From: Magnetococcales bacterium HCHbin5
GTDB taxonomy: Bacteria; Pseudomonadota; Magnetococcia; Magnetococcales; Magnetaquicoccaceae
Length of the DNA: 47,784 bases
Assembly: GCA_002753505.1 (NCBI GenBank)
Contig: PEAG01000004.1
Location: 1-47,784 of the forward strand
Direction: 5' to 3'
Part shown: piece after piece, positions 1 through 26,016 of the stretch
How the letters are laid out: the number at the start of each line of letters is the position of its first letter
Numbering within the stretch: position 1 is the stretch's first letter
Notes under the pieces: model-generated
The model's database searches: none
What the model was told of the DNA's origin: nothing
Seen by the model: only the letters and a program-made list of their open reading frames with translations
Translations under genes and position numbers: made by a program

Positions 1-120
1 TGTGCGCATGCTGACGAAAGAAGATGGTCGGAGAGCCGTGTACGGGAAAACCGTACGCACGGTTCGATGAGGGGGTACTGGAAACGGGGCGAAAGCCACC
101 GCGCCTGCACTCTACTCTAC
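1..120 (+). mobile_element. Group II intron, 3' end (partial)
   Basis: The left edge of the window carries the 3' part of a bacterial group II intron. A canonical domain V lies at 33-65. It is followed by a domain VI-like segment with an internal GGC-GAAA-GCC hairpin, and the intron ends at about 120 with TCTAC, matching the usual terminal AY. The next bases, CAAAGCCCCTGCATG, are the second half of a hairpin that is intact in the other repeat copies (around 11200 and 34430), which places the 3' splice junction at about 120/121. Domains I-IV and any reverse transcriptase would lie left of the window, so intron class and activity cannot be judged. The exact junction is inferred from the repeat comparison. 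Confidence 0.85.
33..65 (+). ncRNA. Group II intron domain V (catalytic hairpin)
   Basis: The lower stem GAGCCGTG pairs with CACGGTTC, including the AGC catalytic triad at 34-36. A two-base CG bulge at 56-57 follows the upper stem TACGG/CCGTA, which is capped by a GAAAA loop. Size and layout fit the roughly 34-nt domain V of bacterial group II introns. Confidence 0.88.
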
Positions 121-6148: not shown

Positions 6149-8266
6149 GTGACCCACAGTACAGAGCAGCTCTCTTCCCTTCTTGCACCGCGCTCCATTG
6201 CCATCGTTGGAGCTTCCCGCCATGCGGGAAAGTGGGGGCATCGCCTGCTCGCCAATGTTGTCTCTGGCGGGTTTGCCGGCAGCATCTATCCCGTCAATCC
6301 CCACGGTGGTGCCATCCTGGGGCAGGCTGTTTATTCTGAGCTTGCCGCCGTTCCACGGGGGGTTGAACTGGTACTCTTGCTGCTCCCTGTGGCCCAGATA
6401 TGGCAACAGGCCAAAATGGCCGTGGCACGGGGCATTGCCGCCCTGGTGGTGTTGACGGAAGGATTCGATGATCATACGCAGGAGGGGCTCGAACGGGCGG
6501 CTGCCCTGGCCAAACTGTGTCGGGAACGCAATGTACTGCTGCTGGGCCCCAACTCCCTGGGGATTGTACATCGACAATGGGCTCTCAATGGCTCCCTGGC
6601 CCCTGTCATGCCACCTGTTGGCGGCCTCTCTCTCTTTTCTCAATCCGGGGCGGTATGTGCAGCGGCGTTGGATTGGATGGTGTCCCGCCAGTTGGGCATC
6701 GCCAAAATGGTCAGCCTGGGCAAACAAGCCAGTATTACGGAGCTTCACTGTCTCTCCTACCTGGCCCATGACCCGGACACCAGCCTCATCGCCTGTCATC
6801 TGACCGGGATCTCAGAAGGCAGCAACTTTCTCAAAGCAGCCATGGAGGCCGCCCACAATAAACCGGTGGTTCTGTTGCTGGGTGATGAGGGCAGCAACGG
6901 CTGCAACGCCCCCTCCGCGCACTCAGCCAGTCGGTTGAGGGAGTCGCCCGCCGTTCGGGCCGCCATCCGTGACCGTACGGGTATTATTCTGACCACCGAT
7001 TTTCAAGCGTGGATGGATATACTGCTGCTGCTGGCTCGTTCTCCCTTGCCGGGCAACAACCGGGTAACGGCCATCACCAACGGTAATCCCGGGCTGTTGA
7101 CCGCCACCCTGCTGGAGCGTCATGGCCTGCATTTGCAGCACCCTGCAGAACCGATGGCCGCAACAGTGCGGTCCCAACTGGCTTCTGTCTGTTTACCGAA
7201 TGCTCCGTTGGATTTGCGCACCGTTGCGCAACCCGAACACTATCGTTTGGCGGTGGATGCGCTCCGGCATGATACCTGGACAGATGCCATTGTCGTATTG
7301 ATATTTCCCCACTTTTTGACCCATCCCGCAGAGACCGTGCACGCTTTGGCCACCGCTGCCGCCGGCGGGAAGCCCCTGTTGGTGATTGTGATGGGAGGGG
7401 ATCGGGCGCAACCTGTGATGGCGGAACTGGACCGCCTGGGTCTGGCGGCTTTTGCCACTCCAGAGCGGGCTGTCATGGCCCTGGCCAGCCTTTACCAGTA
7501 CGGATGTTGGCGACGCCGTACGCCTCGGGTGATCTTGCCCTTTGTTGTCAACCAGGGCCGGGTTCGACGCCTGATTCAACGGTATGGCGCGTTGGGCATT
7601 CAGCAGCTTTCTGACCTGGAATCCAAGCAAATCGTGCAGGCGTATGGTGTCGCTCTCCCCGACGGAGAGGAGGCGGCCAGTATCGATGAGGCGTTGGAAA
7701 AGGCCGAACGCATGGGCTATCCGGTTGCACTGCACCTGCTTCTCCATGAACGCCTTCCGGGGCACTCCGTGGAGAGTCGCCCTGTTCATGTGGCTGGACC
7801 ACAGGCCATGCGGGATGGCTTTGAATTGCTCATGTTCCGGTTTGCCAGCCGATTGCCGGACGCACAATGGGCGGGGCTTTTTGTCGAAAAAATATTTTCC
7901 CGGGGTTATCCCGTTTCATTGGGTATGCAGCGGGATCCGCTGTTTGGTCCTCTCCTCCACATTGACGATGGCCCCTCTTTTTCCCGGGAGGCCATCTCTT
8001 GTCAGTTGGCCCCCGTGACCAGCGAAGAGGCCATGGCTCTGTTGCGTCTCCATTGCCGTCAACGCTCAGGATACCCCCTGGGCGAAACGCTGGAGGATAA
8101 CGAATTACAGGGGGCGGCGGAACTGTTGCAGCGTATTGCCCAACTGGCTCTCGATTTTCCGGCCATTGATCGGATAGGGATCACGCCCTTGCTTGTTCGC
8201 CGGGCGGGTCTGCCTCCCGTGGTCAGCACATGTGATATTCAACTGTCGCAACAGGAGAGGGTATGA
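6149..8266 (+). CDS. NDP-forming acyl-CoA-synthetase-like protein (Pat-like without GNAT)
   Basis: A 705-aa cytoplasmic protein of the ADP-forming acyl-CoA synthetase superfamily, starting at GTG. An N-terminal CoA-binding Rossmann domain (about 1-130; APRSIAIVGASRHAGKWG, GLSLFSQSGAVC) is followed by two succinyl-CoA-ligase-like domains (about 140-440) and an ATP-grasp domain (about 485-700). Key sites look weakened. The usual SHTG around the phosphohistidine reads SAHSAS, and the ATP-grasp YPVxLK reads YPVALH, losing the nucleotide-binding lysine. The HKSD-type loop is also replaced. Salmonella Pat has this same layout plus a C-terminal GNAT domain; here the GNAT is fused to the next gene, whose start overlaps by 4 bases. 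A CoA-sensing or regulatory role fits better than active ligation, but activity cannot be excluded. Confidence 0.8.
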   Translation: MTHSTEQLSSLLAPRSIAIVGASRHAGKWGHRLLANVVSGGFAGSIYPVNPHGGAILGQAVYSELAAVPRGVELVLLLLPVAQIWQQAKMAVARGIAALVVLTEGFDDHTQEGLERAAALAKLCRERNVLLLGPNSLGIVHRQWALNGSLAPVMPPVGGLSLFSQSGAVCAAALDWMVSRQLGIAKMVSLGKQASITELHCLSYLAHDPDTSLIACHLTGISEGSNFLKAAMEAAHNKPVVLLLGDEGSNGCNAPSAHSASRLRESPAVRAAIRDRTGIILTTDFQAWMDILLLLARSPLPGNNRVTAITNGNPGLLTATLLERHGLHLQHPAEPMAATVRSQLASVCLPNAPLDLRTVAQPEHYRLAVDALRHDTWTDAIVVLIFPHFLTHPAETVHALATAAAGGKPLLVIVMGGDRAQPVMAELDRLGLAAFATPERAVMALASLYQYGCWRRRTPRVILPFVVNQGRVRRLIQRYGALGIQQLSDLESKQIVQAYGVALPDGEEAASIDEALEKAERMGYPVALHLLLHERLPGHSVESRPVHVAGPQAMRDGFELLMFRFASRLPDAQWAGLFVEKIFSRGYPVSLGMQRDPLFGPLLHIDDGPSFSREAISCQLAPVTSEEAMALLRLHCRQRSGYPLGETLEDNELQGAAELLQRIAQLALDFPAIDRIGITPLLVRRAGLPPVVSTCDIQLSQQERV

Positions 8267-10137
8267 TGACCCATCCAGCCGCTTTGGATACCCGCTGGGA
8301 AATCAGGTATGCCGGAATGATCACCCATGCCAAAGCCGCTGTGCAGCGCATTCAGCCGGGTCAACGGGTTTTTCTTGCCACCGGGGCCGGGGTTCCACAG
8401 GCTCTGGTGCGGGCCCTGCTCAATGATCATGCCCGTTTGGCTGATATTGAAATTGTCACTGTTTTCGTGGCAGGCAGGCTTCCTCTCGCACTGAAAGAGC
8501 TGGCCGGCACCTTTACCCTCAACACCTTTTTTGTCGTCGATTCTGTCCGGGCTCTGGTGCAGTCCGGGCTGGCGGACTATACGCCCATCCATATGTCGGA
8601 TATTCCGCGACTCTTTTCCAGTGGTCAATTGCCGCTGGATGTTGCCATGATTCAGGTCTCCCCTCCCGATACGGAGGGCAACGTCAACCTGGGGGTGTCG
8701 GTGGATGTGGTGCGTTCTGCGACTGAGAATGCGCATTTGATCATTGCACAGGTTAATCCCTGCATGCCGAGAACCCATGGCGATGCCTCTCTGTCTGTCT
8801 GGAATGTGGACCTGATGGTTCCAGAGGAGGAGCCCCTGCAAGAGCTGTTGCTGCCGGCTCCAACGGAGGTCATGGATCGCATCGGTCGTCACGTAGCCAC
8901 CTTGATACCCGATGGTGCGACGATTCAAATGGGTATTGGAAGGGTGGCCCAGTCTGTTGTCCGCTATTTGACAGACAAGCATGATTTGGGCATTCATACG
9001 GAGATGATTTCCGATACCATTCTGGATTTGATCGACTCCGGTGCAGTGACAGGTCAGCAAAAATCCCTTGATCAGGGGGTGGTCGTCACCAGTTTTGCTC
9101 TCGGCAGTCGTCGTCTCTACGATGCGGTTCATGACAATCCGCTGTTTTCTTTTCGTCGGACAGAATATGTCAATGATTTTATGACAATCGTTCGCCAGCA
9201 GCGCATGGTGGCCATCAACAGTGCCCTGCAGGTGGATTTGACAGGTCAGGTTTGTGTGGACTCCATCGGTGCGTTGTTTTATTCGGGCATGGGGGGGGTG
9301 GTTGATTTTAATTCAGCCACGGCTGCCGCAGAGGGTGGTCGGGCTGTGATCGCTTTGCCCAGTACGGCTCGTAAAGGTAAAACCTCCCGTATCGTCTCCC
9401 GCCTGAACAGCGGGTCAGGCGTGGCCTTGAACCGGGGCATGGTCCACTACGTGGTCAGCGAGTATGGTGTCGCCTATCTGTTTGGCAAAACCATTCAGGA
9501 GCGGGCCCTGGCCCTGATTGGCATTGCCCATCCAAAATTTCGGATCCGACTGCTGAAGCAGGCGGTCAAGTCGGGTTTTTTGCGACCGGAAATAGGGGAA
9601 ATGGATGGTCAAATCTGGGTGGGTAGCCGTGAGTTGCGTACCTCTCTGTTGCTGGAGAGTGGGCAATTGATCACCTTTCGTTCCTCCCGTCCCACAGATT
9701 GGAAGGCGGTCAAAAAAATGCTTTACTCTCTCTCCGAGGGGAGTGTCTATCGCCGATTCATGAGTCATGTCAAGCGATTTCCACTCAACAGGTTGAAAAA
9801 TTTTACATTTATCGATCAAAGACGGGATGTGGTGGTGGTGGGTGTACTGTCTGATGGTCAGAATGAGCAGGTGATCGCCATGGGCGGATACAATGTTGGT
9901 GGTACCGCAAACTGGGCGGAAATCGCCTTTCTTGTGCAGGATAAGTGGCAAGGGCAGGGCATAGGCACCTTCATGATGCAACATTTGGCCAGTGTTGCGC
10001 GCAGTGCAGGACTGGCGGGTTTGACAGCAGAGACCCTGGTGGATAACCTTCCCATGCAAGGGGTATTAAAAAAATGCGGTTTTGCGGTTCAATCCCGATT
10101 CGATGGGGAAACGGTGCATTTTGATATAGAACTGTAG
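8263..10137 (+). CDS. Acetyl-CoA hydrolase/CoA-transferase fused to GNAT acetyltransferase
   Basis: A 624-aa two-part protein. Residues 1 to about 465 are a family I CoA-transferase/acetyl-CoA hydrolase (IEIVTVF, DTEGNVNLGVSVD, IQMGIGRVAQSVV, INSALQVDLTGQVC, VHYVVSEYGVAYLFGK). Residues about 480-624 are a GNAT domain with the acetyl-CoA pyrophosphate loop WQGQGIGTFMM and strand AEIAFLV. In relatives I remember, the residue before VDLTGQV is the catalytic glutamate; here it is glutamine (codon CAG, about 9223), so transferase activity may be lost. The first ATG overlaps the stop of the preceding gene (TATGATG). With acs divergent, the GNAT part is a good candidate for acetylating Acs. Confidence 0.85.
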   Translation: MMTHPAALDTRWEIRYAGMITHAKAAVQRIQPGQRVFLATGAGVPQALVRALLNDHARLADIEIVTVFVAGRLPLALKELAGTFTLNTFFVVDSVRALVQSGLADYTPIHMSDIPRLFSSGQLPLDVAMIQVSPPDTEGNVNLGVSVDVVRSATENAHLIIAQVNPCMPRTHGDASLSVWNVDLMVPEEEPLQELLLPAPTEVMDRIGRHVATLIPDGATIQMGIGRVAQSVVRYLTDKHDLGIHTEMISDTILDLIDSGAVTGQQKSLDQGVVVTSFALGSRRLYDAVHDNPLFSFRRTEYVNDFMTIVRQQRMVAINSALQVDLTGQVCVDSIGALFYSGMGGVVDFNSATAAAEGGRAVIALPSTARKGKTSRIVSRLNSGSGVALNRGMVHYVVSEYGVAYLFGKTIQERALALIGIAHPKFRIRLLKQAVKSGFLRPEIGEMDGQIWVGSRELRTSLLLESGQLITFRSSRPTDWKAVKKMLYSLSEGSVYRRFMSHVKRFPLNRLKNFTFIDQRRDVVVVGVLSDGQNEQVIAMGGYNVGGTANWAEIAFLVQDKWQGQGIGTFMMQHLASVARSAGLAGLTAETLVDNLPMQGVLKKCGFAVQSRFDGETVHFDIEL

Positions 10138-19732: not shown

Positions 19733-19825
19733 CGTGTAAGCGGTCGGGCGACGCACGAGCCGATGACGCCTCTGCGACCTGCTGTGTGATACGTTCATGA
19801 TGGCGGTTCCTTGGGGCGAGCAGAA

Positions 19826-21535
19826 TCAAAAACCGTACCTGAGCAGGTTGATTGATATCGACCGTAGGCGTTCCTGACCGGCAGGGATCGATTCCCAGCA
19901 GTGAGGATGGGTCTCGATCTGGTAACGGATGGCTCCCAGGTCGGTGAGCAAGGTCAGCAGGTTGTGATCGGAGGCAAACCTAAAGACATGATGGCCGGCG
20001 GTTGCCATGGCGGTATAGGCGGGATTGTTGAGGGCATTGATAAAGGGGGGCCACCAAGCGGTGTGCAGTACCACTTGGTTGCGAAATTCAAAAAAGGCCA
20101 GCCCCAGTAGGAGTGCCCGTGCCTCGTAGATGAGTTCGGCTTGCGGGGGATTGTCCTCTTTTGAGCGATAGCAAATCCAGTAGGTTCGACAATGGTCGAT
20201 GAGTCGTTCATAAAGGCGGATGTTTTTTAGCATGTTGTAGTTCAGGCATCTGCTCAGGGCGCATTGCAAGTCGCTACGGGTGGCCCATGTTGGCAGTGGC
20301 AGGGGTTCGGTGTCTTCTGGGCAGGCTCGTTTTGTTGGGCATGGCTGTCTTGTCGGTAGTGCTGGATCGGACTTGCGCTCTTCTTTGGGGGGTGGCGTCG
20401 CACAGGTCGGATCGACCTCATGGGGGGCCAAAGCTTTTTGCCAAAGGAGGGAAGCTTCCTGGTCGGTGCTGGTCAATAGGGGCATATTGACCCGCGTCTG
20501 AAAAGCCTGAAGCAGGTAGGTGTCTATGGAATAATCTGGAATGTCTTTGTATTCTTTACGGAACATCTGCTCCATTACAGCTCCGTCCAGTAGCCATAAA
20601 CTGCACATGGGTATAAGCGGGGAGTTTTCCCTGGACGAGAGATGCGTGGCTTTGCCCTTCAACTCCTTCTGTTCCCTCTGGATTGGCTCATCTCCCTGGG
20701 CGAGCTTGGCGACCGTTTGATGCAGCCGCTCGTCAACGCCCTGGTCCAGAAAGAGAAAGTAGCGGAATAGACCATCCAGTATGGCAATGGCTTGTTCCGG
20801 GCGGCATCGGTCGAGATCATCCACAACCACCAGAACACCCAGTTTGCGAGGGTGCTCCCGATTAAGGGGAGGGCAGCCCAAAGTTTTAAAATGCTGCATA
20901 TTGGCAATCTGACCATACAAACACCAGATCAGGAGGCGCAGAAACAGAGGGTGCTCAGGTTGGAGTATGCGCTCACTGAGTTCTGTCGGCGCGGCTTCTG
21001 GGGCAAGCAACTTGTCGTTGATCGCCCACACTGCGCCCTCTTTCATCGCCTGATAGAGATTGAATATATTCTTTATTGATGTTTTGACATCCACTGATTC
21101 CTTAAGCGTTGTCCGGTAAGCCGGAGCAGAATCAGATGATGTTGTCGAGAACGTGCCTCCCAAACCAACCATAATTTGTTCCGCAACCACCGCCAAGTGT
21201 GCCTTGGCTCTCTTCCATCGTACTCCCCCTGAGCCATCCCCATAACTGCTTAGCAGGTCATACAAGAAACTGGCGAGCAATTTTTCTGGGGCCTGTTTGA
21301 CCCCACCGTAAAGCAGCGGGGAAAAATGGATCACCTCATACTGTTCTTTCAACGCTTCACAAATCTTTTTCGCCAGAGTGGTTTTACCACTGCCTGCCGG
21401 TCCAGAGAGCAAAATATTGCGTGAGAAAATGCGGAGATAGTCTTTCTCTTCATTGCTCTTGGGCGCACGGATACACAATTCATCAAGCAGGCGTTGTTCA
21501 AGACCCGACATGTTTACCGCTGACGTGGAAGTCAT
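19826..21535 (-). CDS. KAP-type P-loop NTPase (second of two)
   Basis: A 569-aa predicted soluble NTPase. Walker A GPAGSGKT lies at about 45-52 and Walker B VLVVVDDLDRC at about 233-243; DDLDRC is the signature of KAP-family STAND-like NTPases. Between them are about 180 residues with FSPLLYGGVKQ (in the place of the KAP aromatic strand) and no convincing membrane helix, unlike many KAP proteins. The C-terminal 200 residues are helical, with a Pro/Glu-rich linker (about 385-410). The start overlaps the stop of the 689-aa gene (ATGA). Last gene of the three-gene unit; specific function unknown. Confidence 0.85.
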   Translation of the reverse strand: MTSTSAVNMSGLEQRLLDELCIRAPKSNEEKDYLRIFSRNILLSGPAGSGKTTLAKKICEALKEQYEVIHFSPLLYGGVKQAPEKLLASFLYDLLSSYGDGSGGVRWKRAKAHLAVVAEQIMVGLGGTFSTTSSDSAPAYRTTLKESVDVKTSIKNIFNLYQAMKEGAVWAINDKLLAPEAAPTELSERILQPEHPLFLRLLIWCLYGQIANMQHFKTLGCPPLNREHPRKLGVLVVVDDLDRCRPEQAIAILDGLFRYFLFLDQGVDERLHQTVAKLAQGDEPIQREQKELKGKATHLSSRENSPLIPMCSLWLLDGAVMEQMFRKEYKDIPDYSIDTYLLQAFQTRVNMPLLTSTDQEASLLWQKALAPHEVDPTCATPPPKEERKSDPALPTRQPCPTKRACPEDTEPLPLPTWATRSDLQCALSRCLNYNMLKNIRLYERLIDHCRTYWICYRSKEDNPPQAELIYEARALLLGLAFFEFRNQVVLHTAWWPPFINALNNPAYTAMATAGHHVFRFASDHNLLTLLTDLGAIRYQIETHPHCWESIPAGQERLRSISINLLRYGF

Positions 21536-23601
21536 GTTGGTTCTCCCGGTGGTGAGTTTTGCTCCCCTGTTTGTCCAGGCTCAAGTGGAGGCAGACCACA
21601 GATGAGGCGGGCATCGCTGTCCATTTTTTTCCAGAGTTCTCTCGGCCAGTTCATGGCATCGGTAAAGCTTTCGCAGGTTGTTATCGGCTCGAAGTCACTG
21701 CCAAAGATGGCCAAGAAAAGTTTGGGTTCATTCAGCTCTTCTTGGCTGTGCAACCAGCTTAAAAAGTCCTTCACCAACGATGACTCATCATGAAACTTGG
21801 CTATCAGACTCTCTGCCATTTTGTCCGCGTTGTTTGGACATGGTCCCAGACCAAATTTTTCCCACACCCGAGTTACTCTCTCAACCCACTTTGAAATCAC
21901 AGCACCCTCCTGACTCTCGACGATCAGGCTTAAGGCTGCCAGGGCACACAAGGCAAGTCTTTCCACTCGATTAGCCAGATCGTATCTGGCTAATGCCACC
22001 ATGACTTGGGTAAAGATTTGCGATGAATAGGATTGATTCGACAGTATGAATGCCTTAAACCCCAACAGATGACGACTCAGCCTCACTCCGGCTATCTCGC
22101 CGAGAGCCCTGATTGCGGATTGGCCCACCGCGTTATTGGCAATCAATTTGACGATCTGTAGAAAACCGTCTTTTTGTTTAAGATCTTGTCGATATTTTGG
22201 GCACCCTTCATCAAACTCTGCGACTCTCCAGAAGGGCAACAGAATGGCGGTGCGCTCATTGAGGAGGGTAGGATCCCGCAACATCTGGTCCAGAGAGGCG
22301 TCCAGGCGCAGAATGATCTGCTTACTGCTACTTTCTTCGTAGAGATCCTGCATGATATAAGGTGCCAGTCGTTGTACCGTCTCTCGGATTGCTGGAATGT
22401 GTTCTGCCCCCTTGTCGGGTGGAATACGAACACGAAGCAGGTTTATCTGACGACGAAATTCTTGGAGCGGATCCGACTGACTGGCATCTCCAGAAAGTGC
22501 CTTGATCCGTTCTTCGGCGATCTTTCTGGTATTGCCTGCAAACGAGGGGTGTTTGGCAAGATCCTGGAGCTTGTTGTCGTCGGCTAAACAGCCCAGGAGG
22601 AATTCGGCATAGGAGTTACAGACCACGACTGTGCCTCCCCGGTGCAATGCCGCTTCAAAAAAAGCTGCCGCCAGGGGTTCTTCACCCCGCAAACCATCCA
22701 GGAGTATGCCCAGGTTGGCGAGAGAGATAGCAACCTTGTTGGTCTTGCTCATGACCCTCAGGTGGTTCGGAAATATGTGTTGGCCATACTCCTCCAGAAT
22801 GTCACGCGCGCGCAATTTGTTCTCGGAGTCTTCCCGTATACTGTCATCCAACTGGGAGATTTTTTCATCGGGATCCCCAGTAAATTTCCTGCCGAAATGC
22901 TTCTTGCAGAATGCATCGAAAGCACCCTCCCACTCATTCGTCCGAGCTTCATTCTGGACTTTGTTGACCGGAGAATCGGGATAGGGTCCAGCGAGCAGAA
23001 TATCCTGGATGCTGTCGGTTGGGGAATCGCCGTGAGGTTTGGCAAGCGGATCCGGGGTTGTCAGGAGAAAGAGCAGGAAATGTTGTTCCTTGGGTTTGCG
23101 CGGCCAAACGTCATAAGCACTATAAGGCATGCCGTTTGCTTTGAGAATCCCGTCCAGTTGATCCACAAAATAGCGGTCTGCCACGCCAAAAAGATTCACC
23201 TGAACCAGCTTGGTCATGTGATGGCTTATGAGGCGTAACTGCTCAAATCCCAACTTGTTCTTTCTCTCCAGTTCATTCAACCAGGGAAAATTTTGTTCTC
23301 GCAGTTCTGTCAAGAACCCCTCCTGAGAGGAACCCATTAGTACATGGCGGAACCAACTCTTGACCTGACGCAAAGTAAGATAGGGGGCTACTTTGCTGAT
23401 CTCAGGAGCAACAGCCCATCCCTTTTCTTGTTTATTCCAAACCAAAATTTTTTCAATAAGCTCATAAGTACGAGATGGCTTTCCCCCAAGGTATTTGCCT
23501 GGTGTGGAAGTGTTGTCGGAGCTGTCTTCAACCTGTTTTTTCGCCTGATCCTGGACAGGTCCAGTGTTTTTTTCAGTGTCTGCGAGTGGTTCTTGTGGCA
23601 T
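21532..23601 (-). CDS. Large uncharacterised protein between two KAP NTPases
   Basis: I do not recognise this 689-aa protein. It has no signal peptide, membrane helix or enzyme motif that I can see. Residues 1-40 are polar and probably disordered. Residues 40-190 contain a compact helical region (RTYELIEKILVWN, YLTLRQVKSWFRHVL). The rest is mostly helical, with HEAT/ARM-like stretches around 500-570 (VGQSAIRALGEIAGVRL). The tail is Pro/Gly-rich. GGAG lies seven bases before the start. The stop overlaps the downstream KAP gene, and the upstream KAP gene ends 12 bases before it. Coupling to two NTPases suggests it is their partner, sensor or scaffold; that is inference from position. Confidence 0.75.
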   Translation of the reverse strand: MPQEPLADTEKNTGPVQDQAKKQVEDSSDNTSTPGKYLGGKPSRTYELIEKILVWNKQEKGWAVAPEISKVAPYLTLRQVKSWFRHVLMGSSQEGFLTELREQNFPWLNELERKNKLGFEQLRLISHHMTKLVQVNLFGVADRYFVDQLDGILKANGMPYSAYDVWPRKPKEQHFLLFLLTTPDPLAKPHGDSPTDSIQDILLAGPYPDSPVNKVQNEARTNEWEGAFDAFCKKHFGRKFTGDPDEKISQLDDSIREDSENKLRARDILEEYGQHIFPNHLRVMSKTNKVAISLANLGILLDGLRGEEPLAAAFFEAALHRGGTVVVCNSYAEFLLGCLADDNKLQDLAKHPSFAGNTRKIAEERIKALSGDASQSDPLQEFRRQINLLRVRIPPDKGAEHIPAIRETVQRLAPYIMQDLYEESSSKQIILRLDASLDQMLRDPTLLNERTAILLPFWRVAEFDEGCPKYRQDLKQKDGFLQIVKLIANNAVGQSAIRALGEIAGVRLSRHLLGFKAFILSNQSYSSQIFTQVMVALARYDLANRVERLALCALAALSLIVESQEGAVISKWVERVTRVWEKFGLGPCPNNADKMAESLIAKFHDESSLVKDFLSWLHSQEELNEPKLFLAIFGSDFEPITTCESFTDAMNWPRELWKKMDSDARLICGLPPLEPGQTGEQNSPPGEPT

Positions 23602-23613
23602 TTCTTTACTCCG

Positions 23614-24933
23614 TTATGATTCCTGTCGCAGGTTATCATGTCTCCTGTCGGAGGATTTGTTTTTCAAGTCTTCTTCGGTGATGTGCCCTAACATGACAGC
23701 TAGAAACAGCGTAAAATAGTTATTTCCAAGAAGTTTCACTAATCCGGAGCTGTTTCTTCCAGGATCGTACGATTGCAGTTCCTCCCTGAGAGAGGGTGGG
23801 CAGTCTGGATGGTTGGAGACATACCTGTCCGCGTACGCATGGAGTAACCGTCGAATATTTTGTGCATGGCTTGGTGCATCACGTTCGATCTGGTCCACGA
23901 GGTCTTGTTGTGCATTCGCAACAGCGTCTCCCATTCCTGGCAAATTGACTTGCAGGGCGATATACTTACGCAAGGCAGAGGCGGGGGAATAGGCGGTTTG
24001 TGTGCCGTTTCTTGTTTCGCTGCCAGCCTTGTCCCCGAATCCATGGCCGTGACACTCCATCCACTGTTTGGCCCCGACGGCCATGATTTCCTCGTCGCAA
24101 GCCAGCACAAAGTGGACCCGTTCCACCCCACCGAACCGCAGCAATAGACGGATGACATGATAAGGTACAAACTTCTGGCAGCGGTCCAGGTCGTCCAGGA
24201 ATACCACCAAATGACGGGGATGGGGGAAGTTGCCCTTCAAAAGTTCTTTTATGCCCTGTTCCAGTTGGACCGCTTGCAAAACCCGTTCTGGCGTGGTGGC
24301 TCCGGGCAGGCTGCTGCGGCGAGGCTCCTCTCGACACTCTTTTTGAGTATTGTCCGGGGGGGGCTTCTTGGCAGTATCGAAGGCACAGGGGCTGGATTGG
24401 CCGTTGGTGTGGGCGTACATGGCCTTGTCGAGTTCCCATATCTCTCTGACATGGGTTTGCCACTCCGGGTTAACTGTGCCGTATCCCTCACCGGCCAGTT
24501 TGTTTACGATGGCGGCCATGACCAGGGCATGTGTCAACGCAGGTGTTGTACCGGTCAGGGAGGGCATGTCAAGCCACAGGGTTTGGAACTGTCCCTCCTC
24601 TTCTGCCATATCCAGCCTGTTTTTCAATCGCCGCAGCAAAGAGGTTTTTCCGGTGCCATATTCAGCGGATACCATGATGTTATAAGGGCTTTTTGTTCTC
24701 CGAAAAGACTGGACTATCTCCTCCAGAAGTTGCAGTCTGGCAGGTTGTACGGCAGTTTCCCCCCCCCGGCCAGCCTCGGCGGTGGTTCCAATATCTGATG
24801 GATGGGACGGGGAAACCAATCCCCACTTTAAGGCCCAAAGCAGGTCGACCGGAGGCTCACCCTCTGTCTCTCCCTGCCCAAGCGGGGATTCGGAGAGAAA
24901 CTGCATCAACTCTTCCGGATAGTCATTGTTCAT
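23614..24933 (-). CDS. KAP-type P-loop NTPase (first of two)
   Basis: A 439-aa protein with Walker A AEYGTGKTS (about 90-98), matching the KAP form G-x-W/Y-G-x-GKTS, and Walker B LVVFLDDLDRC (about 240-250). FVLACDEEIM follows, where KAP proteins have a sensor strand. The region between Walker A and B includes a Pro/Ser-rich insert (about 180-215) and no clear membrane helix. An acidic N-terminal segment (about 1-60) precedes the fold. It differs in length and sequence from the downstream KAP NTPase, so they are not a recent duplication. First gene of the unit; candidate promoter and dyad lie just upstream. Confidence 0.85.
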   Translation of the reverse strand: MNNDYPEELMQFLSESPLGQGETEGEPPVDLLWALKWGLVSPSHPSDIGTTAEAGRGGETAVQPARLQLLEEIVQSFRRTKSPYNIMVSAEYGTGKTSLLRRLKNRLDMAEEEGQFQTLWLDMPSLTGTTPALTHALVMAAIVNKLAGEGYGTVNPEWQTHVREIWELDKAMYAHTNGQSSPCAFDTAKKPPPDNTQKECREEPRRSSLPGATTPERVLQAVQLEQGIKELLKGNFPHPRHLVVFLDDLDRCQKFVPYHVIRLLLRFGGVERVHFVLACDEEIMAVGAKQWMECHGHGFGDKAGSETRNGTQTAYSPASALRKYIALQVNLPGMGDAVANAQQDLVDQIERDAPSHAQNIRRLLHAYADRYVSNHPDCPPSLREELQSYDPGRNSSGLVKLLGNNYFTLFLAVMLGHITEEDLKNKSSDRRHDNLRQES

Positions 24934-25227
24934 GGCAAGAAAACCCCTTATTGGTTTTAAAGAGGGAACATATTAGATTTCAAACTGTTTTGAATGGCCC
25001 CTAAGAACAATTAATATTTTATATTTATTGCCACTCTTCCTTACCCACCCGTAAAAAGCAGCTTGCCTCCCGGATTGACTGGGTAAAGAAATATAGGTAT
25101 CAGATAAAGAGGACGGGAACGGTATCTGAGTCGTCAGAATATACCAAGCATCCTGATGGCCTAACGGAACCGCGCCAGCAGACCAAAACACGCTAAAACC
25201 ATTTCCATCTCAACCGCAGGAAGGCCT
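24934..25227. promoter_or_regulatory. AT-rich region upstream of the KAP operon
   Basis: Non-coding and clearly AT-richer than its surroundings (for example AATTAATATTTTATATTTATTG at about 25010-25032, over 20 bases in part). A minus-strand TAATAT (24975-24970) could be a -10 box, with the dyad at 24979-24994 directly upstream. No good -35 box was found. A 72-codon minus frame at 24973-25191 lacks support. Confidence 0.45.
24979..24994. promoter_or_regulatory. Candidate operator dyad for the KAP operon
   Basis: TTCAAACTGTTTTGAA is a perfect 6-bp inverted repeat with a 4-base spacer, about 46-61 bases upstream of the first KAP start and next to the possible -10 box. No regulator gene is adjacent, and a 12-base dyad in AT-rich DNA can arise by chance. 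Confidence 0.35.
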
Positions 25228-25620
25228 TGATCATCGTTTCGGCCATTATGTCATGGGGTCCAGGGCGAAGCCCTGGGACTTTGCTTTTGGTGCGCCTGTC
25301 ACGATAAGCCGGCGCGCCTTTGAAGCCTGGCGTGTGGATTGGCGCGGCTTTTTGCGCCAATCCACACACCTTCTTAATGGTTGTTGATGGCTGGCAAAAC
25401 ACCAAAAACGTGGTTTCCAGACGCCAGCTTGTCTATCGGGCTACCGCCATCCAGGAGTCTGTCCCTGCGGGGTAGGCGTTGTGCGCGCTGCGCAAATTTC
25501 CTGCGGGAATTTGCTTTGGTGAAGCGCGTTCCATACCATGGCTTTGCCCTGGACCCACTAGGGGGGGTGCCCTTGGACCTGTAATACCTAGTAATCATTT
25601 TGGACGGGCAGAATCACCGA
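25228..25620. repeat. Diverged copy 4 of the hairpin-rich repeat
   Basis: The right arm (about 25436-25560) matches the arm found in copies 1-3 at reduced identity: GGGCTACCGCCATCCAGGAG, CCTGCGGGGTAGGCG and a CAAATTTCCTGCGGGAATTTG hairpin. The outer parts form an inverted pair of their own: GGGTCCAGGGCGAAGCCCTGG at left (about 25256-25276) and GGCTTTGCCCTGGACCC at right (about 25540-25557). It seems to be an older, decayed member of the family. Confidence 0.65.
25332..25367. repeat. Perfect 14-bp hairpin inside copy 4
   Basis: GTGTGGATTGGCGC and GCGCCAATCCACAC flank an 8-base loop GGCTTTTT. No gene ends here, so it is more likely part of the repeat than a gene terminator. I saw no match elsewhere in the window. 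Confidence 0.6.
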
Positions 25621-25941
25621 TGGACAAAACGATGATCAAGACCCACAGGAATACGATAAACTAATTTAATTTATCATGTCAAGAGATCTGGTTGATCGTT
25701 TTAAATTTGTTTTTTTCGATCAACAAGGTGTTCAAATCGTAATATTTGTCCGATTTTTTTCAGAAATGTAATGTTTTATAAAATAACCGGTTTTGACAAG
25801 ATGCGAACAGACTTGCGCTGTTGTTGCACGATCCCCATGCCCCGTTTTTTCGAGATGTCGGAAGTTTTTCGGACTCGTAACAGCTTGGAGATCAAGCGGG
25901 CAAACCGGCTGGACGCATAGAGGGGGAGGTTGGGTAGAGGG
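25621..25941. other. Gene-free spacer before tRNA-Gln
   Basis: AT-rich DNA to about 25800, then mixed composition. In the minus direction it follows the tRNA 3' end. No terminator, tRNA-end duplication (att-like repeat) or gene was recognised. Confidence 0.5.
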
Positions 25942-26016
25942 TGGCTGGGCCGCCAGGATTCGAACCTGGGGATACCGGAATCAAAATCCGGGGCCTTACC
26001 GCTTGGCGACGGCCCA
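25942..26016 (-). tRNA. tRNA-Gln (anticodon TTG), CCA encoded
   Basis: Read on the minus strand, the acceptor stem TGGGCCG pairs with CGGCCCA, the discriminator is G, and CCA is encoded at 25944-25942. The anticodon stem CCGGA/TCCGG encloses TTTTGAT, giving anticodon TTG. The T arm contains GGTTCGAATCC. Total 75 nt with CCA. Confidence 0.95.

Follow-up and report, generated by a model that had tools for sequence, protein, structure and literature searches.

A probable immune module pairs two KAP-type ATPases with a protein of a new family in distantly related bacteria

KAP ATPases recur across bacterial defence, in Qat, Tmn and PifA, and an operon that places two of them around a protein without a recognised domain raises the question of whether it is a genuine unit and, if so, what such a unit might do. 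The operon in question lies in a stretch of 47,784 nucleotides that was analysed as a whole (the window) and that belongs to the Magnetococcales bacterium HCHbin5, whose assembly comprises 4.19 Mb in 200 contigs. The original prediction, made from the letters of this stretch, took it for a multi-component, undescribed system. We refer to the three proteins as A, B and C; the letters run against transcription, so that the operon reads C -> B -> A, and the module is called C-B-A here.

Three tightly coupled minus-strand genes had been predicted, and their coordinates, the 12-base gap and the ATGA overlap were all borne out (Table 1). The overlap likely couples translation of B and A. An AAGGGG-like ribosome-binding site precedes C within the gene-poor stretch upstream. 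The operon has no fourth gene, and no QueC-like or TatD-like partner was found. To its left lies a convergent ccoI/ccoS-like pair and to its right a tRNA-Gln followed by ispE, the names of the protein-coding neighbours being read by eye from the sequence.

Table 1. Features of the C-B-A operon and its flanks in the HCHbin5 window
Feature	Coordinates	Strand	Remark
Perfect 21-nt inverted repeat, 4-nt loop	19687..19732		between convergent ccoS-like gene and A
Direct repeat copy 2, 24 bp	19812..19835		overlaps A stop codon, other boundary
Gene A	19826..21535	-	last in operon; second KAP P-loop NTPase, 569 aa
ATGA overlap, 4 bases	21532..21535	-	B stop/A start; from coordinates
Gene B	21532..23601	-	middle; 689 aa, all-alpha (predicted), new family
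C/B gap, 12 bases	23602..23613	-	from coordinates
Gene C	23614..24933	-	first in operon; KAP P-loop NTPase, 439 aa
Gene-poor stretch, ~1 kb	24934..25941		upstream of operon, probable promoter side
Inverted-repeat remnant, ~420 bp	25223..25643		MITE- or repeat-like
tRNA-Gln (TTG)	25942..26016	-	upstream boundary of module stretch
Direct repeat copy 1, 24 bp, imperfect (19/24)	25967..25990		within tRNA-Gln

A hairpin, a gene-poor stretch of about 1 kb, a decayed repeat and a tRNA had been named as flanks, and all four are present. The hairpin to the left of A is formed by an inverted repeat without a clear T run and is probably a terminator or a repeat element. The remnant on the other side has 24-nt end arms that are 88% complementary and inner arms at 25256-25276 and 25536-25556; its nested inverted repeats read GGGTCCAGGGC...GCCCTGGACCC and are MITE-like. 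As for composition, the three genes have a GC content of 0.50-0.54 and a GC3 of 0.54-0.59, compared with 0.54-0.61 and 0.63-0.75 for most window neighbours. The claim that the unit is AT-richer than its surroundings thus stands against most neighbours and fails against two other window genes whose GC is equally low or lower (529-1602, 0.453; 8263-10137, 0.538). Separately, a Group II intron domain (RF00029) scores above its gathering score at the extreme start of the window (31-120, plus strand).

That two dissimilar KAP NTPases flank a protein without a recognised domain was confirmed by family searches, in which A and C pass the Pfam KAP_NTPase model (PF07693) and B has no library match. Window A reaches 5e-11 (42.8 bits) and window C 2e-10 (40.9 bits), the gathering score being 20 bits. 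In C, the Walker A motif reads AEYGTGKTS and the Walker B motif VVFLDDLDRC, and the protein terminates shortly past a KY...LP segment; in A, the corresponding motifs are GPAGSGKTT and VVVDDLDRC, and a C-terminal N-x-RLY motif is present. The two proteins can be aligned with each other at Walker-motif patches only. The same genome also encodes a third, unrelated and far more canonical KAP NTPase on another contig (G000:C86:8899-9744; PF07693, 1.2e-62).

B has no match in Pfam, PADLOC, NCBIfam or PHROGs, and none by sequence among solved structures. Against defence families, no hit is significant (the best, AbiEii, reaches 0.017 in one member), and a deaminase domain was looked for in B and not found. 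Its N-terminal block bears a YLTLRQVKSW motif, and its central block looks TPR-like (SLANLGILLDG...). The AF2 model is all-helical with a pLDDT of 57.7, better at about residues 100-350 and of low confidence in the C-terminal third; by fold it finds weak matches, mostly TPR superhelices (Foldseek best, 2.9e-3), and the Pfam model TPR_TmcB reaches a sub-threshold 0.11 with one member of the B family. B is therefore predicted to be an all-helical and possibly TPR-like protein. No housekeeping family, the outcome that would have spoken against the original prediction, was seen with either profile or structure methods, and B adds a protein family that is absent from the defence-family library searched.

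Is C-B-A, then, more than a chance arrangement in one genome? Searches with B alone by tblastn and pattern scans returned no relative, whether from 60 related genomes, from 84,980 species contigs or from the viral contigs, plasmids and phages, a result explained by the divergence of the copies, which share 24-36% identity. Within the order Magnetococcales, C and A had one convincing relative each, both in the Magnetococcales bacterium nWRX3bin10 (genome G030, loci L012 and L013) and on two contigs. There, C lies at the extreme end of contig C101, and at the extreme end of contig C151 a 616-aa open frame is followed by A. The matches to the window are 1e-24 for C and 2e-25 for A, and B matches the 616-aa frame in BLASTP at 3e-10. 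Since all three proteins match, we infer that nWRX3bin10 has the same module and that its two contigs join.

Scanning genome contigs with a profile of the C pair yielded three further loci, in a Rhodocyclaceae MAG (L078), a Chthonomonadales (Armatimonadota) MAG (L079) and Azoarcus (L081), and local HMM searches recovered C, B and A, arranged as in the window, in each. Their middle genes match the B HMM at 1.1e-27 (Rhodocyclaceae), 2e-19 (Chthonomonadales) and 1.1e-15 (Azoarcus). The C-B-A order is thus common to five genomes of two phyla, with a B homologue between a C and an A in all five, and no relative was seen in which the genes are unlinked. The four homologous middle genes found with profiles rule out B as an orphan or spurious ORF. 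Two kinds of match were set aside. A matches in many Magnetococcia at E values of about 1e-4 cover the P-loop only, and, the two examined being ClpX, this group was not counted as homologous to A. Weak B matches in three genomes of the family of the Rhodocyclaceae copy (1e-3 to 5e-5) extend over some 60-70 residues within ORFs of 942-943 aa and are likely chance matches of the repeat type.

The five copies make it possible to ask which features of the ATPases are kept. A and C pass the PF07693 cut-off in the Rhodocyclaceae, Chthonomonadales and Azoarcus copies (37.9-83.7 bits) and in nWRX3bin10 (A, 50.6; C, 30.5), and Walker A together with a DDxDR-type Walker B is intact in all five A and all five C sequences, which argues that both ATPases are active. 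In a maximum-likelihood tree of five A, four C (the Azoarcus C being absent) and 20 other KAPs, including QatA from a qat operon, the A proteins form one clade (support 100/99) and the C proteins a separate one (100/100), so that the pair represents two old, co-travelling partners rather than the product of a local duplication. Membrane attachment, in turn, varies within the A family. Window A, B and C have no strongly hydrophobic segment (in A and C, no 19-residue window exceeds 1.6), in keeping with the original prediction that neither NTPase has a membrane insertion; for the family this does not hold, as the Azoarcus A (L081:12798-14594) has a strongly hydrophobic, membrane-type insertion inside its NTPase region that the other A proteins lack.

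In the Rhodocyclaceae copy, one uninterrupted reading frame encodes both C and B, the C part being separated from the B part by about 85 residues, and C and B therefore likely form one functional unit. The same fusion also speaks for a further reading of the anatomy, in which C and B would be two pieces of a single KAP NTPase, the L-T-x-R-Q-x-K block at the B N terminus supplying the C-terminal lid (PRxxKR motif) that is absent from C. A generic KAP lid profile run against the whole of B scores best at residues 75-86 (20.6, with a maximum of 14.1 over 40 column shuffles), yet the formal probability of the lid alignment is 1.7%, and lid HMM searches neither set B apart from decoy proteins nor pick up A. 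Because these HMM searches cannot tell the block from background, a lid in the B N terminus can be proposed at motif level, and we regard the split as a hypothesis that falls somewhat short of an even chance. It is compatible with the immune-module explanation developed below; the anatomy would then be that of two complete KAPs.

The spread of the module is both rare and patchy. It occurs in 2 of 48 genomes of the window's class and 2 of 398 sampled in its phylum, in 2 of 299 genomes of the family of the Rhodocyclaceae copy and in 1 of 291 of the phylum of the Chthonomonadales copy. Among the window's relatives, A, B and C are restricted to the same two genomes, and B is missing from all six other genomes of the window's genus. 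Every copy forms a self-contained cassette with neighbours that differ from those of the others, and in all five cases the flanks are richer in GC than the module. These data are best read as horizontal movement of a complete cassette. Taken together, the five copies, their fixed order, the C-B fusion, the patchy distribution, the low GC relative to the flanks and the lack of a corresponding family in the libraries and literature searched uphold the prediction of a multi-component, undescribed system, and the case for C-B-A as a real, previously unlisted unit is well supported.

Horizontal movement could also mean that an integrative element carries the module as cargo or for its own maintenance (stability, sister-element exclusion or a partition-like role), so that the module would travel with elements whose insertion sites lie near tRNA genes. 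The window offers several points in favour of this explanation besides the low GC. The module stretch is bounded by tRNA-Gln, and the DNA that follows this tRNA differs among genomes of the genus, two order mates having a prs- or pth-containing stretch in its place. A 24-bp direct repeat, 19 of whose 24 positions agree, has one copy within the tRNA and the other at the opposite boundary; none of 60 shuffles reached this agreement, in a region picked after the fact. Given that choice of region and the fact that no integrase was recognised, the repeat gives a hint of a putative attachment-site trace. On the other side, relaxase and partition genes likewise went unrecognised in the window interval, the other four copies are surrounded by ordinary genes and by no recognised element genes, no tRNA was found at the nWRX3bin10 copy, and none of the phage, virus and plasmid records searched carries the module. 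We therefore consider integrative-element cargo an unlikely account of C-B-A.

Proximity to known defence genes gave a divided answer. The Chthonomonadales copy adjoins a complete type I-C operon (cas1-cas4-cas7-cas8c-cas5-cas3), with a tricorn-like protease as a further neighbour, but no recognised defence system stands in the remaining four neighbourhoods, which for copies outside the window were scanned to about 10 kb either way. The Rhodocyclaceae copy neighbours a DEAD-box helicase and mfd, the Azoarcus copy rRNA pseudouridine synthase-like and gltX-like genes, and the nWRX3bin10 copy DUF3782/lptE/leuS-like genes and a HicB-like gene; some of the neighbour names at these other copies were read by eye from sequence rather than taken from a family search. 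Two neighbouring frames may be recorded in passing. Between cas3 and the Chthonomonadales module lies an 812-aa ORF (L079:7407-9845, minus strand) that overlaps a co-oriented frame of 351 aa; the former has no PHROGs match and the latter none in Pfam or PADLOC. Directly downstream of the nWRX3bin10 module is a DUF3782 protein (L013:7996-8640, minus strand; Pfam, 2e-5).

The explanation that we favour is that C-B-A is probably a horizontally moving three-component immune module, directed against phages or mobile elements and built on two KAP-type ATPases. The occurrence of the complete cassette at unrelated sites in a few very distant bacteria, once beside CRISPR-Cas, makes it probable that phage defence based on KAP proteins has here a further, new type of system. 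In being compact, rare, divergent, mobile and GC-poor, with one copy beside CRISPR-Cas and ATPase cores that have relatives in Qat, PifA and RADAR, the module fits the pattern of a prokaryotic conflict system. The defence role is probable on the combined strength of this mobile cassette pattern, the one type I-C copy, the Qat- and PifA-type KAP relatives and the predicted structure of C, a low-confidence AF2 model (pLDDT 62.3) whose nearest solved structures by Foldseek are the RdrA rings of RADAR (1.7e-5), followed by ORC/Cdc6-type AAA+ proteins.

How might such a module work? We hypothesize that C and B sense and that A acts or relays. C and B would act as one unit: C could serve as an NTPase switch and the helical B as the arm used by C in recognition or assembly. 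Infection might then trigger nucleotide-dependent assembly of a ring or oligomer, whose assembled state A, as the second ATPase, would couple to an effect by relay or execution: the invading nucleic acid might be excluded or remodelled, or the cell shut down. No nuclease, NADase, protease or deaminase is encoded separately in the module, and no effector enzyme domain is recognisable in it, so the ATPases and B would do the work themselves. It is tentatively conceivable, if rather doubtful, that C-B-A represents a new class of immune machine, a hetero-oligomer of two KAP ATPases and a helical-repeat protein that senses infection and acts without a classical effector enzyme. As a minimal cassette of two KAPs and one partner, fused in one lineage, it would allow the share of each ATPase to be separated by single Walker mutations.

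The module might instead serve cell physiology (stress, envelope or surface assembly) as an ATPase complex of regulatory or chaperone-like type, one that has spread horizontally and stands beside cas genes by coincidence. Such a complex would suit the four neighbourhoods without recognised defence systems, the missing effector domain, the ORC/Cdc6-type neighbours of the C model and the combination of a helical-repeat protein with AAA+-like ATPases, which is also at home in chaperone-type machines, but extreme rarity, the very low identity of the copies to one another (24-40%), a shifting location and low GC are unusual for machinery of this kind, and we hold this explanation to be unlikely.

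As to known systems, A and C share with KAP P-loop NTPases the above-cut-off PF07693 match and the Walker A and DDxDR Walker B motifs in all examined members. The module differs from them in pairing two KAP lineages with a dedicated third protein in one operon and in a C that ends without the canonical C-terminal PR motif; the inserted transmembrane segments that are common, if not universal, among KAPs are absent from window A and C and present in the Azoarcus A. The fusion of C to helical B in the Rhodocyclaceae copy recalls STAND-like sensor/effector NTPases, the TPR character of B being weakly supported (TPR_TmcB and Foldseek matches, above).

With QatABCD, the module has in common a KAP ATPase within a sporadic multi-gene operon, but it lacks QatB, QatC (QueC-like) and QatD (TatD nuclease), and the QatA model matches A and C in short motif patches only, at 22.4 bits each against an equivalog score of 600. 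QatA, a KAP NTPase that carries an additional C-terminal domain, binds DNA in both single- and double-stranded form, seems to be a heptamer or octamer and is not required against some phages (PMC13279940). RADAR, whose heptameric RdrA rings funnel into the deaminase RdrB (PMC9994260), is the nearest structural relative of C by the low-confidence model described above, but C-B-A has no deaminase and thus no RdrB, and it has two ATPases where RADAR has one; the RdrA sequence model scores C at 0.083 and 11.3 bits, against an equivalog score of 600. Tmn is a defence KAP NTPase with transmembrane segments, of unexplored mechanism (PMC11846954); the membrane-type segment inside the NTPase region of the Azoarcus A resembles it, but Tmn is described as a single KAP protein, and window A and three other A proteins have no such segment. 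For both Qat and Tmn, the KAP contribution or the defence mechanism is described as still unresolved (PMC13279940, PMC11846954). PifA and PDC-S20 (PADLOC), which stand for single-gene KAP defence proteins and candidates for such, are among the best sequence-level defence models for A and C (about 2e-7 to 6e-6). The matches are partial and stay at the level of motifs that KAPs share; neither has a counterpart of B, and one gene makes up the system, in contrast to all five modules, which conserve three genes, or two in the copy with the C-B fusion. C-B-A is therefore a system distinct from Qat, RADAR and single-gene PifA.
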